Assembly: GCA_007693585.1 (NCBI GenBank) | Contig: REDH01000093.1 | Span: 1-39,523 of the forward strand | From: Deltaproteobacteria bacterium | GTDB taxonomy: Bacteria > Myxococcota_A > Bradymonadia > REDH01 | Length of the DNA stretch: 39,523 nucleotides | Reading direction: 5' to 3' | Shown: one piece after another, positions 16,788-26,244 of the stretch | Layout: every line of letters starts with the position of its first letter | How positions within the stretch are numbered: position 1 is the stretch's first letter | Notes under the pieces: model-generated | Databases searched by the model: none | Seen by the model: the letters and a program-made list of their open reading frames with translations, nothing else | Told to the model about the DNA's origin: nothing | Program-made: the position numbers and the translations under genes

Positions 16788-19010
16788 TCAGCGCTCGGCG
16801 GTACGGATCGAGAGGCGTCGGGACAGACGGGTGAACCGCGGCTCCGAACGGATGTTGTCCACGGCCATCCGCAACGCACGCTCCATTCCCACGACGACGA
16901 GAAGCTGACGGGCCCTGGTGACAGCGGTGTAGACGAGGTTGCGCTGCAGCATCACGTAGTGCTGCGTGCTCAGGACGAGCACGACCGCGGGGAATTCCGA
17001 CCCCTGCGACTTGTGCACGGTGACGGCCCAGGCGAGGTCAAGGTCATCGAGGTGCTCCGGGCCGTAGGTCACCTCCCGGTCTTCGAAGCGCACGGCGACG
17101 CGTCCGGACTCCGGGTCGAGGGAGGCGACGATGCCGATGTCGCCGTTGAAGGTCTCGAGCGTGTAGTTGTTGCGGGTCTGCATGACCTTGTCGCCCACGG
17201 CGAACCGCGGGCCGCTCGCTCCCCCGCCGAGGGCGTGGCCGAGAGCCTCGTTGAGGGCGCGGGTGCCGAGGGGTCCCCGGTGCGTGGGCGTGAGCACCTG
17301 CACGTCGGTGCGCGGAGAGAGCCCGAAGGCCGAAGGGATCCGCTCGGTGACGAGCTCGACGACGCGTTCGGCTGCGCGTTCGCTGTTCTCGGTGCGAATG
17401 AAGAAGAACTCGCCGCGCGCGCCGGTGTCCGGCTCGGGGAGCATTCCCTGTCGGATGGCGTGGGCGGCGTCGACGATTCGGCTGGTCTCTGCCTGCCGGA
17501 AGACCCGGTCGAGCCGGGCGACCGGAAGCGTCGCGGCCTCGATGAGGTCGCGCAGGACGTCGCCCGCTCCCACCGACGGGAGCTGCTCCACGTCGCCGAC
17601 GAGCAGCAGCGCGGTCCCCGGCGCGAGAGCGCGAACGAGGGCGCGCATCAGGAAGAGGTCCACCATCGAGGCCTCGTCGACGATCACGAGATCCGTGTCG
17701 AGCGGGTCGTCGAGGCCCTTCTGGAAGCCACCGCGGGCCGGATCGAACTCGAGCAGTCGATGCAGGGTCCGCGCGGGGCGGTCCGTGCTCTCCGAGAGCC
17801 TGCGGGCGGCCCGCCCCGTCGGGGCCGCCAGCTCCACGCGCGCTCCGCAGCGCGCCACCCATCCCACGAGCGCCCGGACGATCGTGGTCTTGCCGGTCCC
17901 GGGGCCTCCGGTGAGCACCCCGACCGGCGCCCCCAGCAGCACGCGCAAGGCCTCGCGCTGACCCGGCGCGAGCGAGAAGGGGAGGCCGCGCTCGAGCACC
18001 TCGAGGTCGTGGGCATCCGGCACCGGAATCCGTGTGGTGGAACCCTGCAGGGCAGCGACCCGACGGGCCACATCCTCCTCGGCGAGGAAGGTGTCCCGCA
18101 GATAGAGGGCGTCCGGCTGGCCCTCGATCGGATCGCGGACGATGCGGGTCTCGCGCACCAGGTCATCGAGCGGCGCCACCAGATGCTCCTCCGCCAGGCC
18201 GAGCAGGGCAGCCGCGTGCTCGAGCAGCACGGGATCGGGCAGATACAGGTGGCCGCCCAGCCCCGCCTCGTGGAGCACGTGCTCCAGACCGGCACGGCGG
18301 CGACGGATGTCGTCGGGTGCGATGCCCACCGACCGGGCGATCCGATCCGCGGACAGAAACCCGATGCCGCGGATGTCACGGGCGAGCCTGTAGGGGTCGC
18401 GCTCCACCACCGGCACGGCTCCCGCACCATAGGCGCGGTGGATGCGCGCGGCGAACCGCGGCGAGATGCCATGGCCCTGCAGGAAGATCATGATGGACCG
18501 CACGGCGTGCTGCTCCGCCCAGGCCGAGGTGATGTTCTCGAGGCGCCGCGCTCCGATGCCCGGCACCTCGATCAGCCGCTCCGGGGAGCCGTCCAGGATC
18601 TCGAGGGTCCGCGACCCGAAGGTCTCGACGATCTGGGCGGCGAGCGTCGGCCCCACGCCCGGGATCATCCCGGATCCGAGATAGGCCTCGATCCCCTCCC
18701 GGGTCGCGGGAACCGGCCGCTCGAGCCGCTCCGCATCGAGCTGGAGATCCCCGCTTCGATGCCGCTTCAGCCGCCCGGCCGCCCGAAGCTGCTCCCCTTC
18801 GCGGAACAGGCCACCCCGCGCGACGACCGTCTGCGACCGCCCCGACGGCGTCCGAACGACGAGCACCTGGAACTCCTCGTCGTGCGAGGCGAAGCGGATG
18901 CGGTCCACCACACCCTCCACGCAGGCCTCCTGACCCTCGCGCCCCTCCTGCCTGCCGAGATCGATCAACCGCACCTCCCCTCGCGACCCGTGAAGCGCCG
19001 CGTCACTCAT
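16788..19010 (-). CDS. recD2: RecD2-type ATP-dependent DNA helicase (SF1B)
   Basis: 740 residues, the usual RecD2 length. An N-terminal OB-like region (about 25-100) is followed by tandem helix-hairpin-helix motifs (SGMIPGVG 113-120, EVPGIGARRLE 148-158, IRGIGFLSAD 213-222). The helicase core has Walker A GGPGTGKTT (368-376), motif II VDEAS (444-448), GDVEQLPSVGAG (motif III) and VTVHKSQGSEF plus YTAVTRAR near the end (motifs V/VI). RecD2 unwinds DNA 5' to 3' in RecBCD-independent repair. Its ATG overlaps the stop of sctO by 8 nt, which places a DNA-repair helicase at the tail of a secretion operon; this is unusual and may be a chance arrangement or shared regulation. Confidence 0.93.
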   Translation of the reverse strand: MSDAALHGSRGEVRLIDLGRQEGREGQEACVEGVVDRIRFASHDEEFQVLVVRTPSGRSQTVVARGGLFREGEQLRAAGRLKRHRSGDLQLDAERLERPVPATREGIEAYLGSGMIPGVGPTLAAQIVETFGSRTLEILDGSPERLIEVPGIGARRLENITSAWAEQHAVRSIMIFLQGHGISPRFAARIHRAYGAGAVPVVERDPYRLARDIRGIGFLSADRIARSVGIAPDDIRRRRAGLEHVLHEAGLGGHLYLPDPVLLEHAAALLGLAEEHLVAPLDDLVRETRIVRDPIEGQPDALYLRDTFLAEEDVARRVAALQGSTTRIPVPDAHDLEVLERGLPFSLAPGQREALRVLLGAPVGVLTGGPGTGKTTIVRALVGWVARCGARVELAAPTGRAARRLSESTDRPARTLHRLLEFDPARGGFQKGLDDPLDTDLVIVDEASMVDLFLMRALVRALAPGTALLLVGDVEQLPSVGAGDVLRDLIEAATLPVARLDRVFRQAETSRIVDAAHAIRQGMLPEPDTGARGEFFFIRTENSERAAERVVELVTERIPSAFGLSPRTDVQVLTPTHRGPLGTRALNEALGHALGGGASGPRFAVGDKVMQTRNNYTLETFNGDIGIVASLDPESGRVAVRFEDREVTYGPEHLDDLDLAWAVTVHKSQGSEFPAVVLVLSTQHYVMLQRNLVYTAVTRARQLLVVVGMERALRMAVDNIRSEPRFTRLSRRLSIRTAER

Positions 19011-19419
19011 CCGCGTCCTCCGCAGGATACCTCCGGCGTCGCGAATGCAGACGCTCGAAGGCACGCGCACGTCCCGCCGCAAGAGCCAGGGATCCGCGCG
19101 CCTGCTCGAGCACCGCACGCGCCACGGTCCGCTCCGCGTCGGCGGCCTCGAGCACCGCACGGACGTCGCGCAGCGCGAGCCTACTGCAACCACACGCCTC
19201 GAGAAAGCCCGGCAACGCGGGCAACTCTCCGGGCGCGCGCCGCGCGTCGAGGGCCGCCTGCTCGGCCTCCACCCGGGCTGCCTCGGCGCGTGCTCCTCCG
19301 AAGGCCTCCTCGAGCTCCCGCAGGCGGGCGGCCGCCACCAGCACCTCACGCTCTGCCCGCTCCCGACGATGGCGCAGGGCCTCGACGAGGCCCTGGCCCG
19401 ATGCGCGGCCTTCAGTCAT
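19003..19419 (-). CDS. sctO: T3SS stalk protein SctO-like (YscO/FliJ type)
   Basis: 138 residues, mostly charged helix: REVLVAAARLRELEEAFGG, ARVEAEQAALDARR, and AVLEAADAERTVARAVLEQA, interrupted by a Pro-rich turn and a Cys pair (ACGCS). The two-helix antiparallel coiled coil and small size match FliJ/YscO proteins, which sit in the centre of the ATPase hexamer and link it to the export gate. Sequence identity in this family is low, so the call rests on shape and on its place directly after sctN, overlapping it by 8 nt. The start is the ATG before TEGRASGQ; the longer frame would run back into sctN. Confidence 0.7.
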   Translation of the reverse strand: MTEGRASGQGLVEALRHRRERAEREVLVAAARLRELEEAFGGARAEAARVEAEQAALDARRAPGELPALPGFLEACGCSRLALRDVRAVLEAADAERTVARAVLEQARGSLALAAGRARAFERLHSRRRRYPAEDADE

Positions 19420-20806
19420 GGGATAGCTCCGCCAGGGCCTCGAGTCGCTCGAGCGTGCACGACGCATCGGTCCACTCCTCCGGCCCCTGCCGCAGGAAGG
19501 TCAGGAGCTCCTCCTCCGCATCGATGGCCGCGTCCACGGCCGGATGGGTGCCATACTCATACAGCCCCAGCTCGATGGCCTCCCGGCGCTGGGACAGGGT
19601 CTCCAGCATCCGACGCACGCTCGACGCGTGCTCCCGGTGATCCGACGATGCGATGCGCGAGAAGACCCGCGAGACGCTCGACGGCACATCGACCGCCGGG
19701 AAGTGGCCCCGCTCGGCCAGCTCGCGTCGCAGCACCCAGTGCCCGTCCACGAGCCCGCGCACCTCGTCGGCGACCGGCTCCTCCATGTCTCCCCCGTCCA
19801 CGAGGACCGTATAGATGGCGGTAATGGCCCCCTCCTCCGACTGGCCGGCACGCTCGAGGAGGCGGGGCAGCTCGGCAAAGACGCTGGCCGGATAGCCACG
19901 ACGCGCAGGTGGCTCCCCGCGCAGAAGCGCCGCCTCCCTCAGGGCGCGGGCGTAGCGGGTGAGCGAGTCCACGAGCAGCAGGACGTGCCGGCCCCGCGAC
20001 CGCCAGCCCTCTGCGATGGCGGTAGCCATCTCCGCCGCCCGGCGCCGCAGCAGGGGGGATGCGTCCGCGGTCGCGACCACCAGCGTCGTGCGGTCCAGCA
20101 GACCGGATGCCTCGAGCACCTCGATGAACTCGCCGACCTCGCGACCCCGTTCCCCCACGAGCGCCATCACGACCACATCCGCCTCGATGCCTCGCCCGAG
20201 CTGGGCGAGCAGCGTGGACTTACCCACCCCGGAGCCTGCAAAGAGCCCCACCCGCTGCCCCTCCCCGAGCGGGAGCATGCCGTCGACGACCCGAAGCCCG
20301 GTGGGCACCGGACGCTCGACCGGGCGACGACCGAGCGCGGAAGGGGGAGCCGCCCGAAGCAACGACTCGCCAGAGGGAAGCTGCTCGCCCGTGCGCATGC
20401 ACCGACCGAGCCCGTCGATCACCCGGCCGAGGGCCTGCTCGATGCAGGGCGCGACGTGGCCCACGGCGCTGGCTCGCGCCGAGGCGCCAGGGCGAAGCCC
20501 GTCGACAGCGTCCAGCGGGAGCAGCAGAGCCTCCTCATCGGAGAAGCCGACCAGCTCGGCCATCAGGGGACGCCCGCTGCGATCGATCTCGACGCACTGG
20601 CCGATCTCCGCACTGGGCAGGCGAGCGCGAAGCATCCCTGCGCCGACGCTCGTGATCCGACCCGAGTACAGGGCCTCGATGGGAAGACACGTCCGCGGGC
20701 GGGAGCGATCCCCGCCCTCGCCACTCACGGCACCCACGCTGGACGGGCGGGCGGAGCGAGGCGCAACCTCCAGTCGGGGACGAGTTGGCACGGCCGATGT
20801 GTTCAC
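19412..20806 (-). CDS. sctN: T3SS export ATPase SctN (FliI/YscN family)
   Basis: 464 residues. It powers unfolding and release of secreted substrates at the base of the T3SS. The sequence has a beta-barrel N-terminal domain (about 45-110), Walker A AGSGVGKST (190-198), LVGERGREVGEFIE with the catalytic Glu (217-230), Walker B HVLLLVDSLTRYARA, the family signature ending YPASVFAELPRLLERAG, and ERGHFPAVDVPSSVSRV. It starts at a GTG overlapping the sctL stop (GTGA). The neighbours sctJ (a lipoprotein, not FliF) and sctK argue for the non-flagellar rather than flagellar form. Confidence 0.92.
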   Translation of the reverse strand: MNTSAVPTRPRLEVAPRSARPSSVGAVSGEGGDRSRPRTCLPIEALYSGRITSVGAGMLRARLPSAEIGQCVEIDRSGRPLMAELVGFSDEEALLLPLDAVDGLRPGASARASAVGHVAPCIEQALGRVIDGLGRCMRTGEQLPSGESLLRAAPPSALGRRPVERPVPTGLRVVDGMLPLGEGQRVGLFAGSGVGKSTLLAQLGRGIEADVVVMALVGERGREVGEFIEVLEASGLLDRTTLVVATADASPLLRRRAAEMATAIAEGWRSRGRHVLLLVDSLTRYARALREAALLRGEPPARRGYPASVFAELPRLLERAGQSEEGAITAIYTVLVDGGDMEEPVADEVRGLVDGHWVLRRELAERGHFPAVDVPSSVSRVFSRIASSDHREHASSVRRMLETLSQRREAIELGLYEYGTHPAVDAAIDAEEELLTFLRQGPEEWTDASCTLERLEALAELSHD

Positions 20807-21657
20807 TGCTCCCTCCGGGCCGCCGGCTCAGCGAGGGTGCCGACGGGCACCAGCAGCGTGCGCGAGAGCTCCTGCATATCGCCCGCCACGGGAGGCCGCA
20901 CTTCGGAGGACCTTCTCGCCGCGAGAGGCGTGCCCGTTCGGGAATCGGACGAAGAGGACGCTGGAGCGCTGTCGTTGCCTTCGCGGTCCGAAGGAAACGG
21001 GCTCTCTTCGTCGCAGGTGTTCAGGATGGATGGGGCCAGGGCGGCCGCGACGTTCTCGAGCCGGAGATCGAGCTGGCCGTCCGTGCGCTCGACGACGACG
21101 TCTCCGGGCAGCAGAAGCGGATCCTCCACCACGGGAGCGATGCCCAGGCGTTCGAGCTGTTCTGTCGTGCCGCGGGCCGCTCTCAGACGAAGCGTTCGCG
21201 CCGGTGGAACCTCGTCGAGCACGGAAGCCACCCACTCGGCGATTCGGCTGCAGTCGGTCGTGATGGATGTGCGCAGGACCTGCTCGACGGCCGCGGTGGT
21301 GGCGCGAATCAGTCTCGTCCGGGCCCGGTCGCGCCACTCCCGTTGGCTCGCACACAGGTCTTCGATCAGGCGGGCCACATCGTCGGCAGCCGCCGCGACG
21401 CCCTCCGCGCGCGCCTTCTCACGCACGCGCTCGCTCTCGCGTTCGAGCCTGGCGAGCTCGGCGACCAGGGTGTCGTGGCGGCGCTCCAGTTCGGCGACCT
21501 CCGCAGCGAGGGCGCTGCGCGCCTGCAGTGTGGTGAGATCGTACCAGCCGGAGGGGGGAGCAGCCGGACCGGATGAGTCATCCGCTCCGAGGGGAAGATT
21601 CACCCAGCCGGCGGAGGTCGATGACGGGTTTGCCTGTTTGCCGACGGATTCATGCAT
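20803..21657 (-). CDS. sctL: T3SS stator protein SctL (YscL/FliH family)
   Basis: 284 residues. A low-complexity N-terminus is followed by a long coiled coil (ARSALAAEVAELERRHDTLV through ERVREKARAEGVAAA), then the FliH/YscL-type domain with VEQVLRTSITTD, RTLRLRAA and the strand GDVVVERTDGQLDLRLENV. FliH/SctL proteins bind the N-terminus of the ATPase and tie it to the cytoplasmic ring. The last ~80 residues are a Ser-rich tail not usual for the family. It overlaps sctK by 8 nt and sctN by 4 nt, the order seen in ysc-type clusters. The ATG follows CCC ATG CAT GAA; longer frames run through sctK. Confidence 0.8.
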   Translation of the reverse strand: MHESVGKQANPSSTSAGWVNLPLGADDSSGPAAPPSGWYDLTTLQARSALAAEVAELERRHDTLVAELARLERESERVREKARAEGVAAAADDVARLIEDLCASQREWRDRARTRLIRATTAAVEQVLRTSITTDCSRIAEWVASVLDEVPPARTLRLRAARGTTEQLERLGIAPVVEDPLLLPGDVVVERTDGQLDLRLENVAAALAPSILNTCDEESPFPSDREGNDSAPASSSSDSRTGTPLAARRSSEVRPPVAGDMQELSRTLLVPVGTLAEPAARREQ

Positions 21658-22222
21658 GGGGATCTCCGTGTTCGGGAGGCGCGGGCCGGACGGCTTCGAT
21701 CCGGCTGACCCACTGGTGCAGGAGGCGGAGCGCATCCGCATGGGGAAGCGGTGCGGGGCGTTCGACGGGGATGCCCTCCGGGTAGAGCTGAGCGACTTCC
21801 CAGCCGAGGGGTGCTCCGAAGAGTGCATCGATTGCGCGCGCGCGGGCCGCACGAGACGCGGATCGCTCAGGCGGGGCGCAGCGCAGGCTCGCCAGCAGGA
21901 CGAGGAGGCTGCGCCAGAGCAGGTCGAGGGCCTCGTCGTCGTGAACAGCCGCAGTGAAGCGGCCTGCGAAGGACGCTGCCGGGGCGTCCAGCCACGGTCT
22001 GGGATAGAGGCCCGTGCTCCTGAAGCACAGGTCCCGAGCCAGAGCGGCGGCACGGCCGGTTCGCACACCGACCGGATCGTGCCCGGTGCGAAGAAGGCTG
22101 GCGACAGCTGCTGCATCGCGCACGACGGCGAGCGACAGGCCAGAATCCCTCCTTGCGCGCACGATGTTTCGCAGGTGGTGGGAGACAGGCAGCGGAAGCG
22201 TGGCGGGCCAGGTCTGCGTCAT
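21650..22222 (-). CDS. sctK: SctK-like T3SS sorting-platform protein
   Basis: 190 residues, mainly helical, with Trp/Leu-rich stretches (LLWRSLLVLLASLRCAPP, ALRLLHQWVSRIEAV). I cannot match it to a motif. The call rests on position between sctJ and sctL (4-nt and 8-nt overlaps), which is where sctK lies in ysc-type operons, and on size (YscK is about 210 residues). SctK links the cytoplasmic sorting platform to the inner-membrane ring. It is the least conserved part of the cluster, so an unrelated protein is possible. Confidence 0.5.
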   Translation of the reverse strand: MTQTWPATLPLPVSHHLRNIVRARRDSGLSLAVVRDAAAVASLLRTGHDPVGVRTGRAAALARDLCFRSTGLYPRPWLDAPAASFAGRFTAAVHDDEALDLLWRSLLVLLASLRCAPPERSASRAARARAIDALFGAPLGWEVAQLYPEGIPVERPAPLPHADALRLLHQWVSRIEAVRPAPPEHGDPHA

Positions 22223-22962
22223 GGCTGGGCCGTACGTCGCGGGGAAGGACCTCGAAACGAGACAACGATCAAGATGCTGGAGAGCAGCACAACGAGCGCG
22301 CAGAGGCCGCCGAGCACGACGACGAGCGGACCGGAAGATGCCTCGTCCACGACAATCGGCCCCACCGCCACCCACTCCCGGGGGGGCGCAGGGGGCGGTG
22401 TTCTTCTGGACCGGACGATGGTGACCCGGTCGGCATCGACGCCTTCCAGACTTCCAATGACGAGCGAACGAATGACCTCGTCGGGCGGGAGCACGGCGTC
22501 AGGCCGGTGCACGAGCAGGACCGCCGAGCGACCGGGCGTTTGGGCGAGGCCGCGCCGGGACGGACCGTCGGGGAGCACCGCGTGAACCCGGGCATCGATG
22601 ACCCCCTCGATGGAGAGCAAGGTGTCCTCGAGGGACACCGTGGCAACACGGAGCCGCCGTGCGCGCTCCTCATCGATGCTCGATACAAGCCCCGATGGTG
22701 CGTCGGGTATGAATCTCTCCACTCTGGGCAGTCCCTCACGCACGAGCAGGGCGCGTGCTGCACTCAGCTCTGCTCGCGGCACGATGACCTCCCACCGGCC
22801 ATCCGTGGACCGACGATCGGCCTGCATGCCCGCGGCATGGAGCACAGCAACGAGTTCGTGGGCATCGCGGGATACCAGGTCCGGCTCGAGAACCTCGGAA
22901 CAGGAGGCAATTGCGACACAGAGTGGAATCGTGATGAACAGCAATCGGTTCGAGAACAACAT
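22219..22962 (-). CDS. sctJ: T3SS inner-membrane ring lipoprotein SctJ (YscJ/EscJ family)
   Basis: 247 residues. A signal peptide ends in a lipobox (AIASC, Cys21). Ring-building motif 1 follows with DAHELVAVLHAAGMQADRR and a strand WEVIVPRAELSAARALL; then comes GLVSSIDEERARRLRVATVSLEDTLLSIEGVIDARVHAVLP, closely matching the SctJ second domain. A single C-terminal membrane helix lies at about 212-236 with a short basic tail. This layout is that of SctJ, not flagellar FliF, which is twice as long and not a lipoprotein. It forms the inner-membrane ring. It starts 4 nt after sctI and overlaps sctK by 4 nt. Confidence 0.9.
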   Translation of the reverse strand: MLFSNRLLFITIPLCVAIASCSEVLEPDLVSRDAHELVAVLHAAGMQADRRSTDGRWEVIVPRAELSAARALLVREGLPRVERFIPDAPSGLVSSIDEERARRLRVATVSLEDTLLSIEGVIDARVHAVLPDGPSRRGLAQTPGRSAVLLVHRPDAVLPPDEVIRSLVIGSLEGVDADRVTIVRSRRTPPPAPPREWVAVGPIVVDEASSGPLVVVLGGLCALVVLLSSILIVVSFRGPSPRRTAQP

Positions 22963-22966
22963 GCGG

Positions 22967-23356
22967 TCACACCTGCATCTGCGTGAGTTGGCGCAGGGCC
23001 TGAACGGCGCGATCCACGAGCCGGGTGGCGGTCTCGATACGCAGGCTCGCGCCGGCAACGAGCGTCTGAAGATGGATCAGATCGCGAGGAGAGGCAGCCT
23101 GCCCGTCGAGCACGGCAGCGAACGCGGATTCGAGCTGCTGCTCCTGCTCCAGCCATGCCTGGAGCGCGTTCACCGAGGAGCTGGTGAGAGCGCTCTCGCG
23201 CGCTTCGAACCCCGATGGCTCCATCGAGACATCAAACGCGGCCTGTTCCGAGGAGACGGGCGCGAGGGATCCGCCCTCGTCCACGCTCCAGGCTGCTGAT
23301 CCACTCGTCGGCCCTGACAGGGAACCAGCCAGGGCTGTGGTCATTTCGAACGCCAT
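22967..23356 (-). CDS. sctI: T3SS inner rod protein SctI (YscI/FliE-like)
   Basis: 129 residues. The N-terminal ~85 residues are Ser/Ala/Gly-rich and probably disordered, without a signal peptide, as expected for an exported T3SS component. The C-terminus, DLIHLQTLVAGASLRIETATRLVDRAVQALRQLTQMQV in pieces, is the amphipathic helix typical of inner rod and FliE proteins, including the final QMQV. It should join the SctJ ring to the needle. The ATG at 23356 was chosen over one four codons upstream because GGAGGAG ends 3 nt before it. It follows the sigma gene with a 203-nt gap, so it may have its own promoter. Confidence 0.75.
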   Translation of the reverse strand: MAFEMTTALAGSLSGPTSGSAAWSVDEGGSLAPVSSEQAAFDVSMEPSGFEARESALTSSSVNALQAWLEQEQQLESAFAAVLDGQAASPRDLIHLQTLVAGASLRIETATRLVDRAVQALRQLTQMQV

Positions 23357-23359
23357 GCA

Positions 23360-23366
23360 CTCCTCC
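23360..23366 (-). promoter_or_regulatory. Ribosome binding site of sctI
   Basis: GGAGGAG on the - strand, 3 nt from the ATG at 23356 (GGAGG at 5 nt). It is one of the strongest Shine-Dalgarno matches in the window. It overlaps the alternative upstream ATG at 23368, which decides the start. Confidence 0.75.
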
Positions 23367-23559
23367 ATGGACGACAGGACGCGTATCATCTTCAGCTTGC
23401 GCAGCAGGTACCGACAGAGCACGCGCACACCCGTGGGCAGACCAGCCGGGTGAGTCGAGCACACACCGGTTCCGCGCCCGGGAAGCGTGAGTCCGCGGTG
23501 GCAGGCCGCGGCACCGGTCGCCCGGGAAGCTCGAGTCACGCGGAAGCACGCCGGCTACG

Positions 23560-24315
23560 CTACCGCACCGGCTGGGGATCGATCTCGCGCTGCTTCTCCG
23601 CCCGAAGCGGAAACAGCTCTCCGCTCTCGGAGAGATCATTGTCCGGGTCCCAGTCCAGATCCGGATGATTTCGGAGACGCTCGATCACGCGACGGTGAAG
23701 CCGGCATGTTCCGTAGCGACTTCGGTCTATGTCCTTTCCGATCTCGGAGAGCGGCCGCTGCTCCTGGTAGATCCCGCGCATGACAGTCCGCTCGTCCGAA
23801 GACAGGGATTCGAGAGCGCTGCGCAAGGCACGGCGCTGGCTGCGGCGGGTCAGGATTCGCTCGGGAGAACCACCCAGACCATTCACGGCCATACCGGGCA
23901 ACTCGGTCTCCATACCATCCGCACTGATTCGCTCGATACACACCTCCGTCCGGGAAGCCGCGTTGCTCATCCGCCCGTACGGCGAGGTGTCCTCGCCATG
24001 CGCGGATTCCGCGGATTCCTGCTCCGCAGCGCGACGCGCGTGCCTGAGCTGCGATCGGGTCCAGCCGACCGTTCGCCACGCCCGATCCATGATCCCGCCG
24101 CGGACACGCGGCCACAGGTAGGCGCTGAGTGGAACACCTCGCTCGGGCTCGAACCGCTCCATGGCCTCGAGACACTCGACGACGCCAATCTGCAGCAACT
24201 CGGCATCATCGAGCTGATGCGGCACCACGTGGCGCGTCGAGCGCACGGCGCGACGGACGAGGCGGATCATTTCGGCTTCAGGGAGCAGAGTCGCAGCGGA
24301 ACGGTTCTCACTCAT
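23560..24315 (-). CDS. FliA/WhiG-type sigma factor heading the T3SS operon
   Basis: 251 residues; RNA polymerase sigma-70-family factor of the FliA type. Region 2 is clear: LDDAELLQIGVVECLEAMERFEPERG, then PLSAYLWPRVRGGIMDRAWR, followed by the WTRSQLRHARR start of region 3. Region 4 is at about 180-230: ALESLSSDERTVMRGIYQEQRPLSEIGKDI with a recognition helix RSRYGTCRLHRRVIERLR. The middle (about 100-165), normally the region 3/anti-sigma contact, is longer and divergent. AGGAGA stands 8 nt before the ATG. Lying at the head of the sct genes, it may turn on this system. No anti-sigma gene is seen nearby. Confidence 0.88.
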   Translation of the reverse strand: MSENRSAATLLPEAEMIRLVRRAVRSTRHVVPHQLDDAELLQIGVVECLEAMERFEPERGVPLSAYLWPRVRGGIMDRAWRTVGWTRSQLRHARRAAEQESAESAHGEDTSPYGRMSNAASRTEVCIERISADGMETELPGMAVNGLGGSPERILTRRSQRRALRSALESLSSDERTVMRGIYQEQRPLSEIGKDIDRSRYGTCRLHRRVIERLRNHPDLDWDPDNDLSESGELFPLRAEKQREIDPQPVR

Positions 24316-24499
24316 GACGGCAATCTCCTTTGGCGGGGGATCGAGCGGACGGAATCATGTGCACCGTTGTCCTACATCCACCTTCATAAGCCCACCCCGG
24401 AGCGCTGCAAGCCCTGTCAAGAACTTTTTTCCCGGAATCGACGATTCTTCTGCGCGCGCACCTTGTGGGGTGCAACGAACGGGAGTGCTCGACGATTCG
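24316..24499. other. Divergent control region between sigma gene and + strand pair
   Basis: About 184 bp with visibly more A/T than its surroundings (for example the TTTTTT run near 24425). On the - strand TTGACA sits at 24415-24420, but no TATAAT-like box stands at 16-18 nt, so I do not call a promoter. It should hold the start signals for the sigma-sct operon and for the divergent pair. Confidence 0.4.
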
Positions 24500-25225
24500 A
24501 TGGGCAACACCGCCACGAGGCCCAGAGACATTCCCATGGAATCCGGATCGACCCGTTCCAGAACTCCCCAGCCCCGCGCACCGGGCTCTCCCGGACGAGA
24601 CGGAACTCACCGCCGGACTCCGGCGTCCGAGAGCTGCGGCCCCGGATGCCCCCATGGGGCGAGCCGTCGAGGTCGCTCCACGAACCCGTCCGGCCAAACC
24701 TGCACGCCGGAGCACCGGAGGTTGCGAAGCGAACGGCAGCCAAGACCCTTTGAAGTCGACGGAGCGTTCGTCCCGGATGACGCCGGACGCTCCTCGCCCG
24801 TCCTCGCGGAGCCCGGATCCCTGCGCGCTCTCGAGCGCCCGCAGCCCGCCTGGCAGCTCTCTGCGTGTGGCGCGAGTCACGGAGCGCACTCGTCAACGCG
24901 CTCGACCCAATCACCGAGCAAGGCGGGAACAGTTCCGGTGCCCGGCGGCGCACCGTTGCTGGCGTCCACGGAGCGCCGCCAGCGTTCCGGTCCCTCCCTG
25001 CAGGGTGAGATCACAATCGTTGTTCCCCGTCTTGGGACCCTCGTGCTGAACGCCGGGCCGACCGCCGCCGTAGAGGCAGTCTGGCGAGTCCGGCTGGCAC
25101 GGGAAGCCACGGACCGGCTCCGGAAGACCCTGCATATCCACGGCTGCTCGCTTCGCGAGAGAGCGCCCTCATCCTGCGAACCCGGACCTTCGTCCCAGCC
25201 ACCTCACCAGAAGAGTTCATCATGA
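24500..25225 (+). CDS. Possible T3SS needle-length regulator (SctP/FliK-like C-terminus)
   Basis: About 241 residues from the ATG used; the start is uncertain because no ribosome site stands out, and the frame is open back to 24314. The first 150 residues are Pro/Ser/Arg-rich and disordered-looking. The C-terminal block GEITIVVPRLGTLVLNAGP followed by VEAVWRVRLAREATDRLRK and TLHIHGCSLRE fits the T3S4/FliK-type domain (two strands then helix, with L/G at the end). FliK/SctP proteins measure needle or hook length and switch substrate. Its position divergent from the sct operon supports this, but the match is weak. The stop overlaps the next ATG by 4 nt. Confidence 0.4.
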   Translation: MGNTATRPRDIPMESGSTRSRTPQPRAPGSPGRDGTHRRTPASESCGPGCPHGASRRGRSTNPSGQTCTPEHRRLRSERQPRPFEVDGAFVPDDAGRSSPVLAEPGSLRALERPQPAWQLSACGASHGAHSSTRSTQSPSKAGTVPVPGGAPLLASTERRQRSGPSLQGEITIVVPRLGTLVLNAGPTAAVEAVWRVRLAREATDRLRKTLHIHGCSLRERAPSSCEPGPSSQPPHQKSSS

Positions 25226-26244
25226 CCCATGGCAACACGACCGGGAGTGATCTGGCGACCACCACACCTGCCCCGATCGACACCGGCGGGCCAACGGAGC
25301 GCAGCGTCGGCTCCCCCTCGGCAGACGCTGGGTGCGAGCCGATCGAAGAACGACCGGCGACGGTATTCGACCCGGTCGACCAGCTGGTCGAGCGTCTGCT
25401 CTCCGGTCTTCGTTGCGAACAGCAGCTGCACTCACCGGACGACCCGTCGCCGGTCCCTTCACCAGTCGATTCCTCGATGAAGCCGCTTGCGGGAGCCTGC
25501 ATCTGGGAGGGCTTCTTTCGACTCTTCCTTGGCCGTGGTGGCACAGCCGTCCTTCGAATCCGTGCCACGCACGGGCTGGGTGCGGATCCCGATCCGCACA
25601 TCACCGAGTTACTCGTCGCAGAGCGCCTGCGCGCCGCTATCGAGCATGATCCGGCCACGACGCTCACCATTCAACCCCTGACAGGCCGAGCACTTCCTCG
25701 CCCTGCAGAACAGTGCGTGCGACATGACGTTCAGTTGGCAGGACTGCAGATCTCCCTCTGGTCATCGCAACGCTTTCGCGACGCCCTGGCGGCGGGGCTG
25801 CCTTCGGCTGATGGCATCGCGGAGATCCGTCTGAAGGCATCGTTGCCGCTCGGTCTCGAACCACCACCGACGCGTGAGCCCACGGCGCTCATTCTTCGCT
25901 GGACGGATCTCGCTAGCCCGACCCTGGTGAGTGATGCCGGTGCTTCGCCGGTTGCCATTCAACTGGACGGCTCCACACCATTTCTTCGTCCCATCCGTTC
26001 GCATGAGCGCCCGACCGGATTGGGCCCGACCCTGCGTCTGCGCGTTCGCGTTCAGGGAACCGAACGGGGGGCTCGCATCCTGGCCATTCGTTCGATCGCG
26101 GAACTGGACGGGGCAGGCACGGCTGTGGCGCTTCACTGCATCCCCGCGAACGACGGTCTGCTGCTGACCCCATCCATCGACTACCGACCGGCCCCGTGTC
26201 TGGCACCACCAGGAGGCCGCGGCAACGCCGCGGCACCTTCCTGA
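25222..26244 (+). CDS. Hypothetical protein coupled to the SctP-like gene
   Basis: 340 residues; its ATG overlaps the stop of the upstream gene (ATGA). I do not recognise a family. The first 85 residues are Pro/Ser/Asp-rich. The rest alternates strands and short helices (WEGFFRLFLGRGGTAVLRIRA, LQISLWSSQRFRDALAAGLP, TLRLRVRVQGTERGARILAIRS). In ysc-type clusters sctQ, the cytoplasmic ring protein, follows sctP and is 300-350 residues, so this is a candidate by position and size. But the C-terminal SpoA domain that defines SctQ is not visible. The 3' end overlaps the opposing lipoprotein by 64 nt. Confidence 0.55.
   Translation: MTHGNTTGSDLATTTPAPIDTGGPTERSVGSPSADAGCEPIEERPATVFDPVDQLVERLLSGLRCEQQLHSPDDPSPVPSPVDSSMKPLAGACIWEGFFRLFLGRGGTAVLRIRATHGLGADPDPHITELLVAERLRAAIEHDPATTLTIQPLTGRALPRPAEQCVRHDVQLAGLQISLWSSQRFRDALAAGLPSADGIAEIRLKASLPLGLEPPPTREPTALILRWTDLASPTLVSDAGASPVAIQLDGSTPFLRPIRSHERPTGLGPTLRLRVRVQGTERGARILAIRSIAELDGAGTAVALHCIPANDGLLLTPSIDYRPAPCLAPPGGRGNAAAPS

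Follow-up and report, generated by a model that had tools for sequence, protein, structure and literature searches.

We analysed contig REDH01000093.1 of a Deltaproteobacteria bacterium (39,523 nucleotides, here called the window; contig C218 of genome G000, which is 4.97 Mb in size and 97.7 % complete). On its minus strand, the window carries an operon for a type III secretion system (T3SS) that opens with the gene of a sigma factor related to the flagellar sigma-28, FliA. This sigma factor is probably a sigma-28 derivative dedicated to a needle-less T3SS (T3SS*), reading a promoter-like element located before the other T3SS* units and before a few further genes. The protein is FliA-related but it is not a flagellar FliA, because domain 3 is missing and the trees place the protein in a separate clade.

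The sigma factor contains regions 2 and 4, while region 3 (PF04539) gave no match in it even at an E value of 10. The best NCBIfam model is FliA_WhiG with 77.9 bits, below the cut-off of 189.6. Domain 3 was found in none of the 22 relatives from the T3SS clade (0/14 and 0/8) in contrast to 11/11 flagellar-clade FliA proteins; regions 2 and 4 were present in all 22. The structure predicted by AlphaFold is confident for residues 13-107 and 151-215, with a disordered linker between residues 113 and 148. A fold search with this model resolved only to "sigma factor", because the orientation of the domains is free. In the phylogeny proposed by the initial annotation, the T3SS-linked sigma factors form their own clade (support 98/86, with 98 as the bootstrap value) apart from the clade of flagellar FliA, E. 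coli FliA included (99/87). The former holds 28/28 T3SS-linked rows and 0/9 flagellar rows, and an earlier tree concurs on the separate clade. The initial annotation, which placed a FliA-type sigma factor at the head of the operon, was correct about the family, but the protein is not FliA of the flagellar kind. Possession of domains 2 and 4 only is shared with the extracytoplasmic function (ECF, group 4) factors; however, FliA_WhiG scores best and FliA structures rank first. The sigma trees contained no ECF rows. The recognition helix reads GxSKSWxSRLH in most clade members and RSRYGTCRLH in the window sigma.

The components encoded in the genome point to a T3SS rather than a flagellum. SctJ of the window has a lipobox and a single C-terminal transmembrane segment, and it scored 97.6 bits with the SctJ model TIGR02544 vs 20.2 bits with FliF. 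The remaining export genes, for which a search had been suggested, were found at two other loci. One is sctV, alone on contig C215 (670.8 bits for the hrcV model vs 573.6 for FlhA), the other an operon on contig C139 consisting of a FliO-like gene, sctR, sctS, sctT and sctU. SctR and SctU score higher as T3SS proteins, SctT scores higher as FliR and SctS ties. The genome encodes one protein of the FlhA family (SctV), one of the FliP family (SctR) and one of the YscJ/FliF family, and no FliF. As these single representatives are of the T3SS type, the genome is without a flagellum, and the sigma factor cannot be controlling one here; the situation named as fatal to the original idea, a sigma governing only flagellar genes elsewhere in the genome, is therefore not the case. 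The non-flagellar assignment held up well. The term injectisome, on the other hand, was too strong: the proposed search for the secretin sctC found no T3SS secretin in the 97.7 % complete genome, whose secretins are limited to PilQ and GspD. SctQ (PF01052) gave no match over the cut-off in this genome either. The export apparatus sctRSTUV is present together with sctJ, sctI and sctN, and the set sctR,S,T,U,V,N,J,L,I is complete, with intact frames, both in this genome and in G002 from a sister genus. With no T3SS secretin, the system is probably one of the needle-less T3SS* known from Myxococcota.

The FliO-like gene leads the sctRSTU operon in three genomes (L170 10389-10856; L173 667-1137; L176 8355-8654). 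In this genome its similarity to FliO is weak, whereas genome G010 gave a clear match. FliO is otherwise a flagellar gene.

Reading the regions upstream of fliO and sctV, we found the same two blocks in both. We counted six exact copies of the pattern GTGCAACG-N13-GACGAYTC in the genome vs 0.005 expected from composition; four of them are independent, because two supplied the pattern. Exact copies precede fliO-sctRSTU, sctV, comM, yraN and a gene of unknown function (383 residues), and the sixth is located in the window. In those checked units that have a clear start codon, 63-79 nt lie between this codon and the first base of the element. Copies with one mismatch include ones before a comF-like gene and before an amidase gene. 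The sister-genus genome G002 has a sole match to the core GCAACG-N13-GACGAYT, which sits between sigma and sctI and differs from the element by two mismatches. Regarding the FliA-type promoters that the initial annotation expected, the classical form TAAA-N15-GCCGATAA occurred upstream of the sct units no better than in shuffled sequences. We recovered a different element instead, and its form TGCAA-N16-ACGAYT has the same spacing as the Bdellovibrio FliA site and shares its CGA -10 core. We infer that the sigma factor recognises this candidate element.

The presence of comM and yraN behind exact copies and of a comF-like gene behind a one-mismatch copy (contigs C114, C174 and C83; L409, L410, L413) hints at co-control of DNA uptake. 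Copies with two mismatches precede small gene pairs (L415, L418; C90:23504 and C83:31892), one with a tetratricopeptide repeat (TPR) protein, and these pairs look like a secreted protein with its chaperone.

The initial annotation treated the pairing of sigma factor and T3SS as an oddity, but further cases occur across Myxococcota and other phyla. The families of related genomes are labelled f1, f2 and so on, and we refer to the T3SS-linked sigma clade as clade-B. A sigma gene lies directly upstream of sctI or sctJ in four genomes of f1 (G000, G001, G002, G003), in one of f4 (G009, with sigma-sctJ) and in five of f2 (G006, G011, G017, G039, G041), while in G038 sctR-S-T-U is followed by a TPR gene and then sigma. 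In G001 and G003 the order is sigma-sctJ-sctL-sctN-(O)-recD2, with sctI not visible and sctV not detectable. In the genomes of f3 no SctJ/FliF exceeds the cut-off, and most of them are without the sigma factor too. A search through the phylum revealed clade-B sigmas in further Myxococcota families, several of them immediately beside sctI or sctJ. An independent scan of named genomes, which used one sigma region-4 motif as query and no T3SS information, returned 80 loci, 39 of them with T3SS genes in the flanks. About 29 remain when only queries not derived from sigma-linked loci are counted, a stricter count applied because such loci had supplied most of the SctI profile. The full order sigma-sctI-sctJ-x-sctL-sctN was found at eight loci, whose hosts are Myxococcota or Deltaproteobacteria metagenome-assembled genomes (MAGs; L309, L331, L333, L336, L340), a Bdellovibrionales MAG (L329) and Acidobacteria/Blastocatellia (L315, L321). 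This recurrence across phyla suggests an undescribed control circuit of an ancient machine.

Three side observations concern the same clade. Relatives of genus g2 (L074, L075, L171, L179) keep sigma, sctJ, sctL, sctN and sctR, and neither sctV nor sctI was seen in them. In a third family, flagellated and equipped with a separate flagellar FliA, the sigma gene belongs to the mini operon gdhA-sigma-sctJ-(K)-sctL-sctQ (L208, L210, L211, L123), in which gdhA encodes glutamate dehydrogenase and SctQ has a FliMN_C domain. Planctomycete clade members (L304, L339, L334) adjoin genes of the type VI secretion system (T6SS; the VipA and VipB sheath, ImpA) and not T3SS genes.

The operon itself (Table 1) agrees with the initial annotation in gene order, strand and overlaps, the genes from sctJ to sctO overlapping by 4, 8, 4 and 8 nt; the range also holds recD2, whose in-frame ATG at 19010 gives an overlap of 8 nt with the stop of sctO. 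The same order, sigma-sctI-J-K-L-N-O-recD2, is repeated in the sister genus (G002), so the arrangement is not due to chance. As for the gene names, domain models supported sigma, sctI, sctJ, sctL and sctN, although weakly for sctI and sctL, whereas the names of sctK and sctO come only from their place in the operon. SctK had no match among Pfam or NCBIfam domains and SctO no meaningful one, and hhalign comparisons with operons of other phyla gave no signal for either. A gap of about 206 nt separates sigma from sctI, so the sigma gene may have its own transcript or may be read through into sctI. The operon is flanked by a NAD synthetase gene on one side and by a cluster of rplQ, rpoA and ribosomal protein genes on the other.

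Table 1. Features of the T3SS* operon and its surroundings in the window.
Feature	Position	Strand	Basis or remark
Promoter-like element GTGCAACG-N13-GACGATTC, exact	24470..24498	+	One of six copies; beside the sigma gene (<160 nt)
FliA-related sigma, domains 2 and 4 only	23560..24315	-	Pfam region 2 PF04542 36 bits, region 4 PF04545 30.1 bits
sctI, inner rod	22967..23353	-	T3SS_basalb_I PF17001 E 2e-4, under its cut-off; G002 homologue at the same place
sctJ, inner-ring lipoprotein	22219..22962	-	YscJ_FliF PF01514 59.9 bits
Putative sctK	21650..22222	-	
sctL, stator	20803..21657	-	FliH PF02108 24.1 bits, exactly at cut-off; homologue in G002
sctN, ATPase	19412..20806	-	TIGR02546 SctN model 487.9 bits vs FliI 467
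Putative sctO	19003..19419	-	G002 counterpart at the same place, with coiled-coil look
recD2 helicase, last operon gene	16788..19010	-	HHH_RecD2, AAA_30, UvrD_C_2
Two overlapping open reading frames (24536-25225 and 25222-26244)	24536..26244	+	Downstream of the promoter-like element; ATGA overlap; function and coding status unsure

We propose the following course of events. The sigma factor would have descended from the sigma-28/FliA family by an early split from flagellar FliA and the loss of domain 3. It would be produced along with the inner rod, inner ring, stator and ATPase that its own operon encodes, and with RNA polymerase it would read the GTGCAACG-N13-GACGAYTC promoters at sctV, fliO-sctRSTU and the few further genes. 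The inner platform would thus be made first along with sigma, which would then activate the genes of the export gate and a limited number of others. An anti-sigma factor or an export checkpoint may control the sigma factor, as in flagella, where a secreted anti-sigma holds sigma back. SctI was considered for this role because it so often adjoins sigma, and it is a candidate for an export-coupled anti-sigma, nothing more. The sigma factor is possibly common to T3SS* and competence genes. A link to an ancestral flagellar control circuit, raised by the initial annotation, is consistent with the data.

Several observations weigh against this proposal. Among 17 other genomes the exact element occurs at background level save for the one G002 site, which points either to fast drift of the motif or to a different reader. 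Neither the sigma gene nor sctI of the window has a copy on its own strand. The window sigma forms a very long branch, and a tree with it inside the flagellar clade was not rejected at 0.05 (approximately unbiased test, p 0.066). In most members of f5 and f7, the clade-B sigma is distant from T3SS genes. The missing copy before the sigma gene would fit a scenario in which sigma is truly linked to sctI/sctJ but has a different, unseen promoter, and some other regulator or sigma factor, for example one of competence, reads the element; the three exact copies out of six that do not precede T3SS genes point the same way. We nevertheless hold this scenario to be unlikely, as the element precedes unlinked T3SS* units and one copy lies close to the sigma gene, the only core match of G002 is placed between sigma and sctI, and TGCAA-N16-ACGAYT matches the Bdellovibrio FliA site TTAAG-N16-CCGATA in spacing and CGA core (PMC3627812).

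The codon usage of the sct genes, weaker than that of their neighbours, and the relatives of genus g2 without detectable sctI and sctV could speak for the remnant of a T3SS in decay, with sigma as a passenger, along the lines once put forward for Myxococcus. Such decay is very improbable given the complete set of genes with intact frames in G000 and G002, the promoter element in common and the order conserved across genera. Moreover, homologous T3SS* genes are upregulated during Bradymonas predation (PMC7460792) and prey lysis by Myxococcus requires T3SS* (PMC12075869). The long branch leaves the placement of the sigma factor unsure and FliA_WhiG is its best family model, which leaves room for the chance recruitment of an ordinary flagellar FliA. 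We give hardly any credence to this last explanation, which is already contradicted by the linkage and by the absence of a flagellum: domain 3 is missing, the clade is separate, and the linkage recurs in many lineages, several of which possess a separate flagellar FliA besides.

The dedicated T3SS* sigma favoured here resembles the flagellar sigma-28 of E. coli and its flagellated relatives in family, in regions 2 and 4 and in the association with type III export, but differs from it in the loss of domain 3, the clade, the linkage to T3SS* instead of the flagellum and the -35 part of the candidate promoter. Published accounts describe needle-less T3SS* in Myxococcus and suggest their presence in Bradymonadia (PMC12075869, PMC7460792, PMC11509652, PMC3459982). 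The system of Myxococcus xanthus ("Myxo" non-flagellar T3SS, NF-T3SS; Abby and Rocha 2012, PMC3459982) is likewise without a secretin and has the ATPase, the export gate and the inner ring and rod in common with the present one. Here, however, the genes are split into three loci, a FliO-like gene is among them and a sigma gene leads the operon, while the main text of that paper mentions neither FliO nor a sigma factor. Bradymonas T3SS*, upregulated during predation, is of the same class by kinship data and has the same export genes (PMC7460792, PMC11509652); in the Bradymonas-like family, unlike here, most of the related sigma genes are not linked to it. A term search of these two papers showed no control of T3SS* by a sigma factor. 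Chlamydia is likewise a non-flagellated organism with an NF-T3SS and a FliA-family sigma, for which an export-coupled anti-sigma has been speculated; the confirmed sigma-28 targets are hctB and tsp (PMC10597470). The attack-phase regulator FliA of Bdellovibrio (bd3318) is another sigma-28 family member acting on predation genes, and its promoter matches in spacing and CGA core (PMC3627812); bd3318 is, however, the flagellar FliA of a flagellated cell. In the literature searched, whose coverage leaves out most subscription journals, there was no description of a dedicated sigma factor or switch-on route for a needle-less T3SS*.

The host, whose kinship suggests the class Bradymonadia of Myxococcota, is related to known bacterial predators, and one sigma factor might couple a contact-dependent predation machine with DNA uptake, as T3SS* would be joined by comM, yraN, comF and, in its own operon, recD2. 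This idea is possible but doubtful. If true, DNA of lysed prey would be taken up and recombined, and the same logic would apply, with another weapon, to the clade members that adjoin T6SS genes in Planctomycetes. Vibrio couples T6SS and competence, and the combination of predation and uptake would parallel this. With a sigma family reaching from Myxococcota to Acidobacteria and a concrete promoter sequence, the control of T3SS* becomes directly testable. The system also bears on the origin of NF-T3SS from flagella, as it retains two flagellar traits, the FliO-like gene and the FliA-family sigma, neither of which is known as a feature of textbook injectisomes.

Regarding the two plus-strand open reading frames, codon usage gave no support, Pfam returned no match and hhalign against operons of other phyla gave no signal. 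By eye one of them appeared FliK/SctP-like, but this identification was dropped in view of the empty Pfam search and the unsupportive codon usage. In the sister genome G001, well-scoring plus-strand genes occupy the same place. At the other end of the operon, recD2 is the closing gene in three genera, with the same position in G002 and G001.

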